DNA of 44,379 bases from Rickettsiales bacterium (GTDB lineage Bacteria > Bacteroidota > Bacteroidia > Cytophagales > Cyclobacteriaceae). The position numbers and the translations under genes were made by a program. Shown here one piece after another: positions 1 through 6,362 of the stretch (the first letter of the stretch is position 1; every line of letters starts with the position of its first letter). The notes under the pieces are model-generated. The model saw nothing but the letters and a program-made list of their open reading frames with translations. It did not search any database and had not been told where the DNA came from. The stretch is from contig PBTY01000017.1 of the NCBI GenBank assembly GCA_002729235.1, positions 89,073 to 133,451 of the forward strand, read 5' to 3'.

Positions 1-212
1 TGCGTATACTCTGCTTCAGAAAGACGTTGTTCTTCCTTATACTTGATAGATTTCACCAGCTCTTTAGCTTGCTCTACCACTGTATGTTTTTCAGGATATG
101 TTGATATCCATTGATTCCAGAAATGATCACTCTCTTTGTTCGGGTTCAGAACCCAGTTCACAAAGAACTCATCCTGTAAAAAATCTTCTATATCGTAATT
201 GCGGTAGTCCAT
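1..212 (-). CDS. FecR-family anti-sigma factor, N-terminal part (runs off window)
   Basis: The leftward reading frame opens at an ATG at 212 and stays open to the window edge, giving about 70 residues. It begins MDYRNYDIEDFLQDEFFVNW and continues with a Trp-rich, helical stretch (FWNQWISTYPEKH), which is the usual N-terminal cytoplasmic segment of Bacteroidota FecR-type anti-sigma factors. Its place directly downstream of an ECF sigma gene on the same strand supports this. Such proteins hold the sigma factor at the inner membrane and respond to a TonB-dependent receptor. The membrane helix and FecR periplasmic domain would lie outside the window. A purine-rich stretch (AGAAGGAAG) precedes the ATG. 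Confidence 0.8.
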   Translation of the reverse strand, partial: MDYRNYDIEDFLQDEFFVNWVLNPNKESDHFWNQWISTYPEKHTVVEQAKELVKSIKYKEEQRLSEAEYT

Positions 213-341: not shown

Positions 342-962
342 TTACTGATTTGCTAACAATGATAATGATAGCATAGTGAGAATTTCCTCTTTATGAGGAC
401 CTAAAATTTTTCCCAAAGATTCGGTAGATCGGTAGATCAATGCTCTAGAAGATTTTACTTTGATTCCCAGCATTTCTGCGATTTGCTCATACTTCAACCC
501 TTCGAAAAAGTATAATACCAAAGCTTCCCTTTGAAGTGCTGGCAACTGATTGAGACTTTCCTGAATCAATTTTTCCTTTCGCTGATCCAATTGACCATTG
601 ATCCATCGAGCCTCAGCAGAAATAGTAACCAAGAAAGAATCTTTACTGGAATCATCCTCCATTGCTCTCCTACGTTGAGTTTTTTTAATCGCCTTGACGA
701 GTTTATTTCTAAAACTCTTCATCAAATAAAACTTGATGGAAGAAGTGGCCCCTAAACGCTCTCGAGAGTTAATTAAATCAATAAATAAGTCCTGTAGGGT
801 ATCACGTACCAAATCTCGGTCATCAACAAACTGACAACCATAATTGAATAATACATTGGAGTAGGTACGATAGATATAAGTCAGTGCTGTTTCATTTCCC
901 GATTTGAATCGTTCCCAGATAAGATCCTCACTCTCCTGATAGCTATCAGAATTAGGGTGCAT
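342..962 (-). CDS. ECF-type RNA polymerase sigma factor
   Basis: This is a sigma-70 family extracytoplasmic-function sigma factor that would redirect RNA polymerase to a small regulon. Region 2 is visible near the N-terminus (IWERFKSGNETALTYIYRTY, then LVRDTLQDLFIDL). Region 4 is near the C-terminus (LPALQREALVLYFFEGLKYE followed by the helix-turn-helix IAEMLGIKVKSSRALIYRS). The frame is open back to an ATG at 1016, but I prefer the ATG at 962. The 962 start begins just before the usual ECF N-terminus and has AAGGAAAG upstream, whereas the 1016 start would lie directly against a palindromic operator. The downstream FecR-like gene makes a standard sigma/anti-sigma pair, which in this phylum usually controls a SusC/D-type transport locus, here outside the window. 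Confidence 0.88.
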   Translation of the reverse strand: MHPNSDSYQESEDLIWERFKSGNETALTYIYRTYSNVLFNYGCQFVDDRDLVRDTLQDLFIDLINSRERLGATSSIKFYLMKSFRNKLVKAIKKTQRRRAMEDDSSKDSFLVTISAEARWINGQLDQRKEKLIQESLNQLPALQREALVLYFFEGLKYEQIAEMLGIKVKSSRALIYRSTESLGKILGPHKEEILTMLSLSLLANQ

Positions 963-1012
963 CACCAAGGTTCTTTCCTTAGCGTTTGGTTGATGATCGG
1001 GGGAAAGGCTGG

Positions 1013-1040
1013 ACATATACGTAAGTATTACGCTTATAAA
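1013..1040. promoter_or_regulatory. Palindromic operator upstream of the ECF sigma gene, matching the galK/Nudix-regulator site
   Basis: The core at 1020-1032 is CGTAA-GTA-TTACG, perfect 5-bp arms around a 3-bp spacer. The flank TTACGCTTATAA (1028-1039) is the exact reverse complement of 12 bases at 4387-4398 in the galK/regulator gap, where the second arm also recurs with one mismatch and the same 3-bp spacer. It lies on the sigma-gene side of the gal terminator, about 55-75 nt before the preferred sigma start. I infer a binding site for the Nudix-type regulator encoded at 4444-5136. Confidence 0.6.
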
Positions 1041-1109
1041 TTTAACAAAAAAACACGAATAATCGGAAGCTTTTTTATCATTTTATCAAAAACAAAAGAC
1101 CAAACCGCT

Positions 1110-1145
1110 AAAAACAAAAAAACCGAACAAGAAACTCGTTCGGCT
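1110..1145 (-). terminator. Rho-independent terminator of the galKTE operon
   Basis: Read leftward, a 9-bp stem (CCGAACGAG / CTTGTTCGG, one G-U pair) closes a TTT loop and is followed by a run of seven T, a G and four more T. It starts about 25 nt after the galE stop. It separates the gal operon from the sigma gene, so the sigma gene needs its own promoter. Confidence 0.85.
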
Positions 1146-1169
1146 TTAACCCAATAAAAATGATGATCT

Positions 1170-2162
1170 TTAATACTTTCCTTTGCGCTCTCCTGATTTC
1201 CAGGCCCAGGCAGTTTTAATTATTTCTTTTACGTCTTTGTATTTAGGATCCCAACCCAATTTATCCAATGCAAGCTTCGCATCGGCGATCAGTTTGGTTG
1301 CATCACCTTGACGTCTTCCTTCATATTCTGTTGGCACTTCTTTACCAGTAACCTCGGCCGCAGCATCGATCACTTCCTTCACCGAGTAACCTACACCAGT
1401 TCCCAGATTAACCGCGATGCTATCATTTCCTTTTCCTAAGTACTCTAGTGCTTTGATGTGCGCATCACCTAAATCGTTCACATGAATGTAATCTCTTACA
1501 GCAGTACCATCCGGTGTGTCGTAATCTGTTCCAAATACTTTGATTGCTGGACGATCACCTTTGATCGCATCCAAAATCAAAGGAATCAAGTGAGTCTCCG
1601 GATCATGATCCTCTCCTATCACTCCATCCTCAGATGCTCCAGATGCATTGAAATATCTTAGGAATACATATTTCAAGTTGTAGGCAACTTCGTAATCTTT
1701 AATGATCTGCTCCAATACATACTTGCTCTTACCGTATGGACTTACTGGTACTTGTGGATGCTTTTCATCCAATGGCATGTACTCAGGATTGCCATAGGTA
1801 GCGCAGGTACTAGAGAAGATAAACTTCAAACATCCGTGATCTACCATGGTCTTCAATAAGGTCAATGGCTTCACCACGTTGTTCACATAGTATTTGTGCG
1901 GATGAGAAACAGACTCTCCTACATAGGCATATGCCGCAAAATGCAATACCGCCTCAAATTGATGTTTTTCAAAAAGTGTATTCAACAACTCCTGATCTCC
2001 AATATCGCCTTTTACCAATTCTACGGAATCATCAACGATTGCTTCCGGGTGACCGTAAATCAGGTTGTCTAATACTATTACTTCGTAGCCTTTTTGAACA
2101 AGCATACGTACGGTGTGTGAACCGATGTATCCTGCTCCTCCTGTTACTAATACTTTACTCAT
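1170..2162 (-). CDS. galE: UDP-glucose 4-epimerase
   Basis: GalE interconverts UDP-galactose and UDP-glucose, the last step of the Leloir pathway, using bound NAD. The 330-residue length is typical for this short-chain dehydrogenase/reductase. The Rossmann motif [10 protein letters not shown] (residues 7-16, Gly8-x-x-Gly11-x-x-Gly14) opens the protein. The catalytic set is present as SST (117-119), Tyr143 and Lys147 in SPYGKSK, and RYFNASGA follows. Its ATG overlaps the galT stop as ATGA, so the two are translationally coupled. It is the last gene of the operon before a terminator. It also supplies UDP-sugars for cell-surface glycans. Confidence 0.96.
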
Positions 2163-3196
2163 TGTTGTTTATAGTGTATTTCAGAAAGTGATCTCAACGT
2201 ATTGGCTGCCATCTCAGCGGTAATGTCTCGCTGTGGATTGGCGAACATTTCATAGCCCACCATGAACTTCTTCACAGTTGCGGACCTCAGCAAAGGTGGG
2301 TAAAATGAGTAATGAAAGTGCCATCCTGTGTAATCTTTTCGATCAGTAGGACGCTGCTGCATCCCTGCTGAATACGGAAAAGACGTTTTGAACAGGTTAT
2401 CATATTTGATGGTAATGATGGAAAGCATAGCCGCAAAAGCTTCTTCCTCCACTTCCGTCATATCCGTTACTGCCTGAAAATGACGCTTTGGAATGATCAT
2501 CGTTTCATAAGGCCAAACTGCCCAGAAGGGCACCAGACAAACAAAGTGATCATTCTCCGAAATGATTCGCTCTCCTGCAGCTAATTCCTGCTTTAAGTAA
2601 TCACCCAACAAAGAAGTACCTTTTTCAGCAAAGTATTTTTCTTGTGTTGCGGTACGTTTGGCTATTTCATTGGGCACACTACTCTGCGCCCAGATCTGCC
2701 CATGTGGATGAGGATTGCTGCACCCCATAATTGGACCTTTGTTTTCAAAAATCTGCACATTACCGATGTAGTCAACAGCTCCAAGCTCTTCGAACTGCTC
2801 CTTCCACACCTTAACAACCTTAGTTAAATCCTCCACGCTCATTTCAGGCATGGTTAGCGAGTGGTTAGGCGAAAAACAAATCACCCTGGACGTACCTTTT
2901 TCTTCCAAAGAGCGAAGTAATCCATCATTATGCTCCTCCACTCCCTGATCTTCCATCAGCGCAGCAAAGTCGTTCTGAAAAACATATGTCGATTGATAGG
3001 CAGGATTGTACTCCCCTCCCATTCGCTCATTTCCAGGACAGAGATAGCAACCAGGATCATAAGTTGGACGCTTTGCTTCCTCTATGTCCTCGGTCTTTCC
3101 TTGCCACGGACGTTTGGTTCGGTGTGGAGACACCAGCACCCATTCATCCGTCAGGATATTGTACCGCTTGTGCGGCTTTTCAATATTTAAACTCAT
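2159..3196 (-). CDS. galT: Galactose-1-phosphate uridylyltransferase
   Basis: GalT swaps UMP between UDP-glucose and galactose 1-phosphate to give UDP-galactose and glucose 1-phosphate. The family signature NPHPHGQIW is present, with the active-site His-Pro-His near residues 163-165. The N-terminal HRTKRPWQG and the [12 protein letters not shown] zinc-site Cys pair are also there. I chose the ATG at 3196 ([13 protein letters not shown]), which lies 7 nt after the galK stop and matches the usual N-terminus. An in-frame ATG at 3223 would add nine residues and overlap galK by 20 nt. The gene sits between galK and galE in one transcription unit. Confidence 0.95.
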
Positions 3197-3203
3197 TGCT
3201 GAA

Positions 3204-4364
3204 TTAAATTCTTTTGACACCATCGGAAATCACCACCTTGATCGGAGTAATCTCTTTATTGAATTGTTCTTTGTATGCTGCATTTAATTCAGAAATAAAT
3301 TGATCTTCTGAACCTTTATTGACCAAATTGATGGTACAGCCTCCAAAGCCCCCACCCATCATACGCGCCCCAACTACATCTTCGCGATTGTTCGCAAAGT
3401 CAGCCATGAAATCAATTTCAGGACATGATATCTCGTATCCTGAACGCATACCTTCCTGAGCAATGGTCAAGATTTCACCAAGTGCATCAATCTCACCAGC
3501 TTCCATAGCCTTCGTCATACTCATCACGCGCTCATTTTCCTCTATCACGTACTTACATCTTTTGTACACGACATCAGAAAGTTCAGATTGATGGGCATTA
3601 AGTTGTTCTAACGAAACATCTCTAAGTGATTTTACCTCTGGGAAATACTTTTGCAACAGACTTACTCCCTCCTCACATTGCTTTCTACGAATATTGTATT
3701 CCGAATCAGCAAGATTGTGTGATACATTGGAATTGCACAATACAATGATATGGTCTGTTAATTCAATAGGGAAATGTCTGTATTCTAAAGACTCACAATC
3801 CAGCAGCAACGCATGATCAGCCGAACCCATCATGCTGGCAAATTGATCCATGATTCCACACATCACTCCAGCATAATTATGCTCGGCTTTTTGAGACATC
3901 TTCACCATTTCTACTTTGGGAATGGACAAGTCAAAAAGCTCATTCAGAGCAAAGCAAGTTCCGCACTCTAAGGCTGCAGATGAGGACATTCCAGAACCTT
4001 GAGGTACATCACCAGAAAACACGATATTGAATCCAGTCACTTCACGTCCAGATTTCTGAATCTCAGCCACAACTCCCATCAGGTAGTTGGCCCAGAGCTT
4101 TTCTTTTGTTGGCTGAAAATCGTTGATTGAAAACTCAAACGTCTGGTCCATATCAAGTGAAACCAGCGTAGATTCTGAAGAACCTGATTTACCTATAGCT
4201 AAGTAAATGGCTTGATCTACGGCAGCCGGCAGTACAAATCCATTATTATAATCGGTGTGTTCACCAATTAAATTGATCCTTCCTGGTGCTTTAATAACGA
4301 TGGGCTCTACACCAAATCGTTGTTCAAATGAGGATCTAACCTCATTTACTATCTTTTCATTCAT
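3204..4364 (-). CDS. galK: Galactokinase
   Basis: GalK phosphorylates alpha-D-galactose at C1 with ATP, committing galactose to the Leloir pathway. All three GHMP-kinase motifs are visible: the galactokinase signature [13 protein letters not shown] (28-40), the ATP-binding [10 protein letters not shown] (123-132), and the C-terminal [11 protein letters not shown]. The catalytic Asp is Asp173 in [10 protein letters not shown]. The length of 386 residues is normal. It is the first gene of galKTE. The 79-nt gap upstream is shared with the divergent Nudix-type regulator and contains a palindromic operator, so galactose-dependent derepression is likely. Confidence 0.96.
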
Positions 4365-4386
4365 CAGTTTGGGGTATAATAAGTTA

Positions 4387-4414
4387 TTATAAGCGTAAAT
4401 TTAACGTTTAATAA
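4387..4414. promoter_or_regulatory. Palindromic operator between galK and the Nudix-type regulator
   Basis: The core at 4394-4406 is CGTAA-ATT-TAACG, an inverted repeat with one mismatch and a 3-bp spacer, inside a longer AT-rich imperfect palindrome. Its first 12 bases (TTATAAGCGTAA, 4387-4398) recur exactly, inverted, next to the sigma gene at 1028-1039. Its position between divergent genes fits a site that both autoregulates the regulator and controls galKTE. Confidence 0.65.
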
Positions 4415-4443: not shown

Positions 4444-5136
4444 ATGACTTACAATCACCCCAAGATACTAGTGGCAATCGACTGTTTGGTATTCGGTTAT
4501 GACACTGCTGAAAACGACCTTAAGGTTCTCTTATTTCAACGTGAGGTAGAGCCATTCGCTGGTGAATGGTCACTTATTGGTGGCTTTGTGAATGAAGATG
4601 AGAACCTTTCTGATGGAGCTGAACGTGTTTTAGAGAAATTTACTGGTCTTAAAGATGTATTTCTGGAGCAGTTGTCCACTTATGGAAAAGCTAATAGGGA
4701 TCCTGGAGGACGTGTGGTCTCTATTTTATATTGGAGTTTGATCAAGCTCGACGAGCTGCACAGAGACATTGCTAACGAACATGGTGCCAGGTGGTTTGAT
4801 TTGGATGAGCTACCAAAACTCGTTTTGGATCATGAAGACATGGTACGATTGGGTGAAGAGAAACTGGTACAAAACGCCAAAAGCAGACCTATTGGATTCG
4901 AATTGCTACCGGAAGATTTCACACTGCCACAGCTTAAGCAGTTATATGATGCCATCTATGGAAAAAGTATCGATGACCGTAACTTCCGTAAAAAGATTTT
5001 GTCCACTGATTTGCTGATTAAAACGGACAAAAAGGATAAATCCACCTCAAAGAAAGGAGCTTTTGTTTATCAATTTGATGCAGAAAAATACAACGATCTT
5101 AGGAAGCAAGGTTATCATCTGGACTTGAATGTGTGA
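4444..5136 (+). CDS. Nudix-fold winged-helix transcriptional regulator (NrtR/AraR-like), probable galactose regulator
   Basis: Residues 5-145 form a Nudix fold and residues about 150-230 a C-terminal winged-helix DNA-binding part (FTLPQLKQLYDAIYGKSIDD, then NFRKKILSTDLL). This is the architecture of the NrtR family and of the Bacteroides arabinose regulator AraR. The Nudix box is degenerate: G47 and E53 and R61 are kept, but the REUxEE catalytic stretch reads R61-V-L-E-K-F, so the metal-binding glutamates are largely lost. Hydrolysis is therefore unlikely and a ligand-sensing role is favoured. It is divergent from galKTE with a palindrome between them, so I infer control of galactose genes. 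The effector is unknown. Confidence 0.85.
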   Translation: MTYNHPKILVAIDCLVFGYDTAENDLKVLLFQREVEPFAGEWSLIGGFVNEDENLSDGAERVLEKFTGLKDVFLEQLSTYGKANRDPGGRVVSILYWSLIKLDELHRDIANEHGARWFDLDELPKLVLDHEDMVRLGEEKLVQNAKSRPIGFELLPEDFTLPQLKQLYDAIYGKSIDDRNFRKKILSTDLLIKTDKKDKSTSKKGAFVYQFDAEKYNDLRKQGYHLDLNV

Positions 5137-5143
5137 GTGCCTA

Positions 5144-5803
5144 TCATGAAGTAGGCTGACTTATTTGAGGTAGTCTAAACTCAAATGTCGTCCCTTCCCG
5201 CACCGTGGAGGAAACGGAAATCTCACCATCCATAGCCAACACCAAATTCTTAACGGTGGCCAAACCAATTCCACTACCAACATTGCCATACCGATCCTCG
5301 GTATGGACACGAGTAAAAATATCAAAAATGGTATGCTGATATTTTTCATCAATGCCCATTCCATTATCCGAAACGCTAAAAATATTCTGGTTGTTTCCTG
5401 ATTTCATCATAACTGAGATCCTATTAAAATCCTTGTCGTTGTATTTGATAGAATTGGTTATCAGATTTAGGAAGATCTGCTTCAGACCAATAGGATTGGC
5501 ACGAAATGAACTCACCTCGTAATCGACCGTAAGTTCCTCTTGATTCAATGAAGGGAACAACAGCCTGACTTCCTCAAAAAACTCTTTTGCCTCAATCTCT
5601 TCGAATGTTAACGATGTATTTGTATTACGGCTATATTCCAAAATACCATCAACCAGATTGACCACATTATTAGAAGATTTACTCACCACACCTAAAATTT
5701 CTTTCATCTCTTCGGACAATTGATAATTAAATCCGGTAGACAAATGATTTGTTAACCCAGATATGGCTGTCAATGGAGACCGAATGTCATGAGCCAAAAT
5801 CAA
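5144..5803 (-). CDS. Histidine kinase core, 3' fragment of a frameshifted GAF-kinase gene
   Basis: This frame carries the whole kinase core. The H-box is LAHDIRSPLTAIS with His5, the N-box is LITNSIKYND with Asn117, the G1 box is SDNGMGID, an F-box-like IFDIFTRV follows, and G2 is GSGIGLATVKN (177-182). The ATG at 5803 lies inside the dimerisation helix, so the fragment cannot start a natural kinase. Upstream of the ATG the same frame reads TQHLEKFALILAHD, exactly what normally links a GAF domain to a HisKA helix. It overlaps the end of the GAF frame at 5787-6362. Both almost certainly belong to one sensor kinase gene broken by a one-base indel. No membrane segment is seen, so it would be cytosolic. 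Its stop is 7 nt from the convergent Nudix regulator. Confidence 0.8.
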   Translation of the reverse strand: MILAHDIRSPLTAISGLTNHLSTGFNYQLSEEMKEILGVVSKSSNNVVNLVDGILEYSRNTNTSLTFEEIEAKEFFEEVRLLFPSLNQEELTVDYEVSSFRANPIGLKQIFLNLITNSIKYNDKDFNRISVMMKSGNNQNIFSVSDNGMGIDEKYQHTIFDIFTRVHTEDRYGNVGSGIGLATVKNLVLAMDGEISVSSTVREGTTFEFRLPQISQPTS

Positions 5804-6362
5804 CGCAAATTTCTCTAAGTGCTGGGTTTTTTCGCTGGAGCTGCGTCATCATTTCCTCTAGCTGCAATCGCTTTCTCCTGAGCTCCATTAGATTGATCAC
5901 TTGTTGAGACAGAGCTTTCAAAGTCTCTCGTTGCTCAGAAGTCAGCTTTCGCGGTTTCTTATCGATAACGCATAATGTTCCTAAAGCAAAACCCTGATCA
6001 TCCACCAATGGTATTCCCGCATAAAATGCTATGTGTGGATCATTAATTACATTCGGATTATTTTGAAATCTAGGATCCAAAGTAGCATCTTCTACTTCCA
6101 AAATCTGCTCCGGGTCATTGATAGCATGTGCGCAAAAAGCTTCGCTCCGAGGTGTTTCATCTGCCTCTATGCCTTTTTTAGCTTTGAACCATTGTCGATT
6201 ATTGTCAATCAATGAAATTAATGAGATGGGTGTACCACATATCTCCGAAGCTATCCTTACCAGGTTGTCAAAATCCGGATCAGTAAGGGAATCAAGAATG
6301 GAATAGCTATAAAGTGCATCAAGCCTTTCCTTCTCATTTTTTGGTTTCTCAGGTAAAATCAT
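5787..6362 (-). CDS. GAF-domain protein, 5' part of a frameshifted GAF-histidine kinase
   Basis: The 191-residue frame opens MILPEKPKNEKERLDALYSY and contains one GAF domain (about residues 20-165). It has the familiar RQWFKAKKGIEADETPRSEA and FCAHAI, then AGIPLVDDQGFALGTLCVID. This type of N-terminus is common in cytosolic hybrid or GAF-only sensor kinases of Bacteroidota. It ends in a coiled linker (MELRRKRLQLEEMMTQLQRK) and then runs into a short out-of-frame tail (NPALREICVDFGS). Skipping one base in the A6 run (plus strand 5827-5832) would join it directly to the kinase frame. Its N-terminal half is intact; the ligand is unknown. Confidence 0.8.
   Translation of the reverse strand: MILPEKPKNEKERLDALYSYSILDSLTDPDFDNLVRIASEICGTPISLISLIDNNRQWFKAKKGIEADETPRSEAFCAHAINDPEQILEVEDATLDPRFQNNPNVINDPHIAFYAGIPLVDDQGFALGTLCVIDKKPRKLTSEQRETLKALSQQVINLMELRRKRLQLEEMMTQLQRKNPALREICVDFGS
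5827..5832 (-). other. Homopolymer run, probable frameshift site in the GAF-kinase gene
   Basis: The coding strand has AAAAAACCC here. With five instead of six A the reading becomes QLQRKTQHLEKFALILAHD, a seamless GAF-to-kinase linker. This may be a real mutation, a phase-variable tract, or a sequencing/assembly error. Confidence 0.6.

Follow-up and report, generated by a model that had tools for sequence, protein, structure and literature searches.

In the 44,379-nucleotide stretch analysed here (the window; bases 89073-133451 of contig PBTY01000017.1, below C18, in the 6,553,609-base (6.55-Mb) assembly GCA_002729235.1 of a marine Rickettsiales bacterium placed in the Cyclobacteriaceae), one palindromic operator is shared by the galactose genes galKTE with their divergent NrtR-family regulator and by the start of an extracytoplasmic function (ECF) sigma factor gene paired with a FecR anti-sigma gene. 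In computational comparison, the shared operator, the association of operator and regulator family, the conservation at sigma genes of close relatives and the protein family assignments make it likely that a galactose-responsive NrtR-family repressor gates the transcription of two ECF sigma/anti-sigma pairs, with two signals needed for full opening.

We infer the following course of events. A dimer of the regulator would bind predicted operators of 25 bp where galKTE and its own gene, sigma1-FecR, galM, sigma2-FecR and a sugar-esterase gene have their promoter regions, and would repress these genes in its apo form. Galactose or a close derivative would release the regulator from DNA, and the two sigma genes with their FecR partners would be transcribed only after this release. 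Each FecR would then hold its sigma factor as long as no extracellular polymer is engaged by the cognate SusC/SusD transporter. The polysaccharide loci, with the machinery that consumes galactose-containing polymers, would thus need two keys at once for full opening, intracellular galactose and extracellular polymer.

A shared operator at the galactose and sigma genes

The genes and sites concerned are, in window coordinates:
1..212, minus strand: 5' end of the FecR anti-sigma gene, which extends left of the window (C18:88265-89284); FecR 3.4e-19, FecR_C 7.7e-19
342..1016, minus strand: ECF sigma factor 1 (sigma1); Pfam Sigma70_r4_2 5.6e-15, Sigma70_r2 1.8e-5
1014..1038: operator 2, minus strand TATAAGCGTAATACTTACGTATATG, at the start of the sigma1 gene; matrix score 22.1
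1116..1143, minus strand: likely terminator of galKTE, a hairpin (CCGAAC..GTTCGG) with a T-run between galE and the sigma1 gene, read by eye
1170..2162, minus strand: galE, UDP-glucose 4-epimerase; NCBIfam galE 1.8e-132
2159..3223, minus strand: galT, galactose-1-phosphate uridylyltransferase; NCBIfam galT_1 3.3e-152
3204..4364, minus strand: galK, galactokinase; NCBIfam TIGR00131 gal_kin above cutoff
4388..4412: operator 1, TATAAGCGTAAATTTAACGTTTAAT, between galK and the divergent regulator gene; matrix score 28.9
4444..5136, plus strand: NrtR-family Nudix/winged-helix regulator, a predicted galactose-responsive repressor; Pfam NrtR_WHD 2.2e-26, AraR_C 4.5e-14, NUDIX 5.3e-12

The original prediction, made from the letters of the window, had pointed to TTATAAGCGTAA at 4387-4398 and, inverted, at 1028-1039, in each case as half of a CGTAA-N3-TWACG palindrome (4394-4406 and 1020-1032). 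Both copies are exact (plus and minus strand, respectively) and are the only two in the whole assembly, with 28 further places at one mismatch. The palindromes also lie where they were placed, and the real unit around both is a longer 25-bp palindrome, (A/G)CGT-N7-ACG(C/T) in A/T flanks, at 4388-4412 and 1014-1038. The gene context had likewise been read correctly and is backed by the domain matches: galKTE all lie on the minus strand, the regulator gene diverges from galK, and the ECF sigma gene is followed by FecR and then by SusC (TIGR04056) and SusD (6.4e-38) genes. The second site does stand at the sigma/FecR pair, past the hairpin that follows the gal genes, but it is not purely upstream as had been stated, since the final three bases of operator 2 on the minus strand are the sigma1 ATG (1014-1016). 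If this start is right, the operator, which ends on the start codon, would contain the sigma1 promoter or lie downstream of it, and the mRNA leader may be very short or absent. The ATG is backed by codon-like conservation in Marinoscillum pacificum MRN461, where three of four base changes in codons 2-18 are synonymous. A weaker start at residue 19 was rejected, as M. pacificum lacks this Met but keeps the preceding codons.

The short forms of the motif are little proof alone: TTATAAGCGTAA at up to two mismatches occurs five times in the window against 3.1 expected, and the 13-bp palindrome at up to one mismatch four times against 1.6 expected, a count that 12 shuffles reached. The 25-bp unit was scored with a matrix (consensus TATAAACGTA..TACGTTTATA) built from 12 sites of other genomes and none of its own; these sites, located upstream of regulator homologues, were chosen by eye for likeness to the window motif, so that the matrix is partly circular, and one of them (L056) belongs to a regulator with a D-K rather than a D-D recognition helix. 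Besides operators 1 and 2, no position in the window scores 6 or more. First-order random DNA (4 x 6.55 Mb, about 26 Mb) gave six matches scoring at least 15, one of at least 17 and none of at least 20, and a zero-order model expects 0.13 matches of at least 22.1 per genome and 0.0009 per window. The reversed matrix gave no match of at least 17 in all DNA examined, against 121 distinct real ones (not a genome rate, as this DNA was drawn largely from around such sites or regulators), and none against five real ones in 93 kb of C18.

In its IUPAC form, the 25-bp operator occurs with at most one mismatch at four places in the genome, all of them in C18 within 34 kb (59262, 73751, 90088 and 93462). 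Their number is ordinary but their clustering is unusual: the region holds the gal genes and two sigma/FecR/SusCD loci, and the motif is not scattered genome-wide without a link to gal genes, which would have spoken against the proposed connection. The matrix, applied to C18 bases 40000-133451 and to selected stretches elsewhere (a scan that took in 12 of the 20 two-mismatch places and none of the three-mismatch ones), finds five operators in these 93 kb of C18, namely at galKTE/regulator (28.9), sigma1 (22.1), galM (26.3), sigma2 (17.8) and the esterase gene (18.6). The operators of galM, sigma2-FecR and the esterase lie 20-34 kb left of the gal operator. The galM product matches Aldose_epim (2e-87), and the gene after the 18.6 operator encodes a SASA-type esterase (2.5e-18). 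The sigma2 operator is found 83 bases before a sigma gene with a TTG start (C18:71770-72399), whose protein was recognised via similarity and a profile built in the analysis; FecR (7e-18), SusC, SusD (1e-44) and a glycoside hydrolase of family 43 (GH43, 1e-63) follow. With FecR and SusC/SusD genes adjoining an ECF sigma gene, the arrangement is that of an ECF sigma/FecR switch of a polysaccharide utilization locus (PUL), and the loci of the sigma1/sigma2 region encode further GH43 proteins and an alpha-L-rhamnosidase.

The regulator and its predicted sugar

Assignment of the regulator to the NrtR family rests on a Nudix domain fused to a winged helix (Pfam NUDIX and NrtR_WHD, both above cutoff), and its best PDB match is the arabinose regulator BtAraR (5bs6, E 9.5e-67). 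Measured against the Nudix box REUXEEXGU (PMC4666351), its own box is degenerate, with RVLEKFTGL overall, RVLEKF in place of REUXEE and the catalytic glutamates lost in the alignment. A score of 126.4 bits with NCBIfam TransRepNtr, against a cutoff of 400, separates it from the NAD-type NrtR proteins that respond to ADP-ribose.

The likeness to AraR is partial. In BtAraR, Arg34, Arg86 and His131 are described as holding arabinose, with Phe36 near C4/C5 and Phe129 near C2; Lys179 reads G7 of GTGT in a crystal with DNA bearing GTGT-N7-ACAC half-sites, and L-arabinose releases the protein from DNA (PMC4666351). The window regulator keeps the polar residues (R33, R85, H130), but has Val35 and Leu128 for Phe36 and Phe129, and Asp178 with ACGT/GCGT half-sites for Lys179 with GTGT; the operator spacing, CGT-N7-ACG, equals that in the BtAraR-DNA crystal. 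Genetic linkage to arabinose genes was not found either, as the regulator gene is divergent from galKTE and the operators of its relatives lie before gal genes. D-Galactopyranose is L-arabinopyranose with a CH2OH group at C5, and replacement of Phe36 by Val could make room for galactose because of this extra group. The two Phe changes alone do not exclude arabinose, since AraR proteins of Prevotella also vary at both positions (Met, Ser) (PMC4666351).

Six other NrtR-like proteins are encoded in the genome (nine match segments in all), NrtR half-sites are similar, and a site before an AraR-like paralogue on contig C21 scores 19.7 with the gal matrix. There is thus some small probability that the sigma site is bound by such a paralogue, or by another sugar regulator with a similar motif, and that sigma control is not tied to galactose. 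However, five paralogues have a match that extends over the Lys179-equivalent (that of the sixth, on C65, falls short of the residue), and the D-D helix that goes with ACGT half-sites is present in none of these five. The AraR-like paralogue, with a D-K helix, a Phe/Phe pocket and the site AAGTGTA..TACATTT, goes with GTGT/ATGT, and TTATAAGCGTAA is exactly common to both window sites. Among 97 distinct regulators in the examined loci, a site scoring at least 15 lies within 400 nt upstream of 28 of the 64 with a D-D helix versus 4 of the 33 others, the AraR-like one of these four being of the GTGT type; this link of residue and motif is partly circular, the matrix having been built from such upstream regions. 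Helix residue and half-site further seem to covary (L055; L265/L058; L056), D with ACGT, K with GTGT and N with AAGT, one K regulator having a mixed site, and a base-reading code of residue versus half-site is possible for the NrtR family.

Less probable still is that the regulator binds both sites as an activator, or as a coregulator needing sugar to bind, with occupancy switching the sigma genes on, given that its best-studied homologue, BtAraR, loses DNA upon sugar binding (PMC4666351) and that an operator including the sigma1 start codon occupies a repressor-like position.

Conservation and reach of the operators

For the predicted galactose-responsive repressor, a close comparison is M. 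pacificum, whose regulator is 91% identical and whose gene order, with operator scores in parentheses, is susC-fecR-sigma1-(22.1)-galE-galT-galK-(30.3)-regulator. All five C18 operators have counterparts there, the remaining three being those of galM (26.9), sigma2 (17.3) and the SASA esterase (21.1). In the sigma1 operator, 22 of 25 positions are kept, two of the three changes falling in the central spacer and the third at a position variable among relatives; 32 of 50 alignment columns are kept just upstream of it and 263 of 300 coding columns after it. A second Marinoscillum, strain MSM7, has the order sigma2-(20.6)-galM-galE-galT-galK-(31.2)-regulator, with sigma2 70% identical. The sigma2 operator is therefore present in three species, beside galM or gal genes, and sigma2 bears it where the gene adjoins these. 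Motif clustering and conservation in M. pacificum support the proposal that one regulator would link the gal genes to an ECF switch. That the sigma1 site is a chance match without regulatory role, retained in M. pacificum through close descent, would fit its absence at more distant sigma1 orthologues and a comparison spanning only ~11% divergence, and is the least probable alternative given a score of 22.1 when none of at least 20 arose in 26 Mb of random DNA, an adjacent spacer less well conserved than the operator, and the independent presence of an operator at a second sigma gene in three species.

The motif accompanies relatives of the regulator in no fewer than eight named genera (Marinoscillum, Fulvivirga, Splendidivirga, Agaribacillus, Reichenbachiella, Marivirga, Lutibacter and Zunongwangia), where it is found before a mutarotase gene or before galK, galT or galE. 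Sites of high score lie upstream of galK (L043, L045, L046, L128, L144, L151, L153, L154), galT (L048, L155, L156) and galE (L054, L147, L302), and also GH2-like genes (L122, L131), a sodium/sugar symporter-like gene (L123, L129), an aldose-epimerase-like gene (L143) and SusC genes (L132, L314); a number of these assignments, among them gal genes, were made by eye from protein starts. Many further matches precede genes without evident sugar function. In G066 (L133), a 23.1 site is followed by an ECF sigma gene (Sigma70_r4_2 4.9e-12) without a FecR neighbour in the stretch examined. In Splendidivirga corallicola, a 30.2 site stands ahead of galT and an ECF sigma gene, which lie 10 bases apart, and in M. 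pacificum, the target of a 19.3 site is ambiguous because it is flanked by a sigma-FecR pair and a divergent GH43-like gene.

Seven of the 121 distinct operators scoring at least 17 precede a sigma domain (sigma1 twice, sigma2 three times, G066 once and L318 once), its start 117-156 nt from the operator's first base. With column-permuted matrices, run at threshold 8 because too few matches were obtained at 17, a sigma domain started 20-200 nt away at 2 of 424 matches and no more than 1 kb away at 6 of them. The enrichment test used 289 of the 321 loci, those obtained by sigma queries being left out.

Several results weigh against the proposed gate and restrict its reach. The excess of sigma genes is marginal (7 of 121 operators versus 20 of 1431 open reading frames (ORFs), binomial P ~0.055, both directions counted), and because of this P we make no claim of a family-wide enrichment. 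Six of the seven operators come from Marinoscillum or the genome itself, with L318, whose target is ambiguous, among them, and sigma-gene operators are known from three closely related Marinoscillum genomes plus a single further genus. M. pacificum is only a modest test, because it is 89% identical over the compared stretch. Conservation at both loci, put forward as a check of the original prediction, is found in M. pacificum but does not extend to the four nearest sigma1 orthologues in other genera (L098-L101, 56-62% identical; 0 of 4 with a site of at least 11), nor to five further sigma1 homologues (0 of 9 together). Similarly, three of the five sigma2 orthologues examined (G007, G088 and G061, 57-67% identical) have no site of at least 10. 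The sigma link is therefore lineage-restricted. The sigma2 site itself is weak: the zero-order model, less favourable than the first-order one, expects about two matches of at least 17.8 per genome, and both the C21 site and a site of 18.7 at C54:6354, whose neighbouring genes have no evident sugar link, outscore it. The SusC N-terminal extension of ~130 residues is present, with no STN match to it in Pfam at E<=0.5, NCBIfam or PDB. Finally, the reversed IUPAC pattern has five places in the genome at up to one mismatch versus four for the real one. An excess of IUPAC counts was rejected as evidence, because the reversed control gives similar or higher counts: 240 real versus 514 reversed at up to three mismatches in this genome, 48 versus 36 in 16 relatives and 38 versus 33 in 13 more at up to one mismatch, 59 versus 91 in the two closest relatives at up to two mismatches, and 18 versus 26 in 148 genomes at none.

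Relation to known systems and further observations

Two parts of the scheme are already known, namely sugar-responsive NrtR regulators that reach SusCD loci (AraR, XylR) and a repressor above an ECF/FecR pair, for iron (Fur, which is unrelated to NrtR). BtAraR (BT0354) and XylR (BT0791) of Bacteroides share with the window regulator a Nudix-like sensor joined to a winged helix, an inactive Nudix box and N7-spaced half-sites; their regulons also reach SusC/SusD polysaccharide loci, some of which are dually controlled with surface-sensing hybrid two-component systems (HTCS) (PMC4666351, PMC3878776). The window regulator differs in its linkage to gal rather than ara or xyl genes, in Asp for Lys179 and Val/Leu for Phe36/Phe129, and in having operators at ECF sigma genes. 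Fur of Escherichia coli, a cytoplasmic metabolite repressor, is alike in that its site at fecIR, in the -10 region of fecI, overlaps the promoter of genes for an ECF sigma factor and FecR, whose second input comes from surface signalling (PMC9249621); FecA signals there through FecR. Fur differs in responding to iron, not sugar, and the effector of the window regulator is predicted to induce rather than corepress. In Bacteroides thetaiotaomicron, PerR/SigR-1 places an ECF sigma gene in the expression module of a cytoplasmic regulator of Bacteroidota; this concerns oxidative stress and is derived from expression modules, and the excerpt states no sugar or FecR link (PMC12596196). ECF sigma/anti-sigma pairs and HTCS are described as the commonest polysaccharide-locus regulators in Bacteroides (PMC11501099), and the pairs there likewise take a SusC-like transporter as signal source, whereas the excerpts do not mention a repressor of the sigma gene that responds to sugar (PMC3878776, PMC11501099, PMC10766802). 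Among the matches listed for the open-licence literature, titles and abstract starts name no galactose NrtR regulator and no NrtR control of an ECF sigma gene, and the excerpts of PMC5507952 and PMC5613140 mention neither.

We lean slightly towards a more specific form of the two-key gate. In this form, Phe36->Val and Phe129->Leu would have given an NrtR repressor its new specificity for galactose and Lys179->Asp would have retuned its DNA code; it would control ECF sigma/anti-sigma synthesis, each locus would answer to polymer outside only once monomer is in the cytoplasm, and sigma genes would have been recruited more than once. To our knowledge, little is known of what sets the expression of ECF sigma/anti-sigma pairs themselves. 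If a monomer-sensing repressor does so, it would offer a simple answer to how costly uptake machinery for unprofitable polymers is avoided, and would also explain how loci for related polymers are tied together. Further, a regulator family whose known sugars in Bacteroidota are arabinose and xylose would gain a galactose specificity open to test, along with a specific residue-to-base hypothesis.

Some further arrangements were observed in relatives. In L166, L169, L227 and L059, ECF sigma and FecR genes come immediately after an NrtR-family gene (in L227, SusC and SusD genes as well), which is a direct genetic link of both regulator types, separate from the gal operator. High-scoring operators in M. 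pacificum precede sulfatase-like and GH2-like genes (L313, L312; assigned by eye) that adjoin a further sigma-FecR-SusCD set, which suggests that the regulon may reach sulfated galactans. A LacI-family-like regulator gene (by eye) is divergent to the gal regulator in L041 and L042 and stands first in the gal operon in L047, with the operator region in common; a second galactose regulator may here share sites with the gal regulator or have swapped them. Overlapping tandem palindromes of the same type lie before unrelated-looking genes in G071 and G125 (L093, L094). Within the window itself, 5144-6362 on the minus strand holds a histidine kinase ORF (HisKA and HATPase, 5144-5803) and an upstream ORF (5787-6362); the two share 17 bases in different frames and represent either a split kinase or a frameshift.

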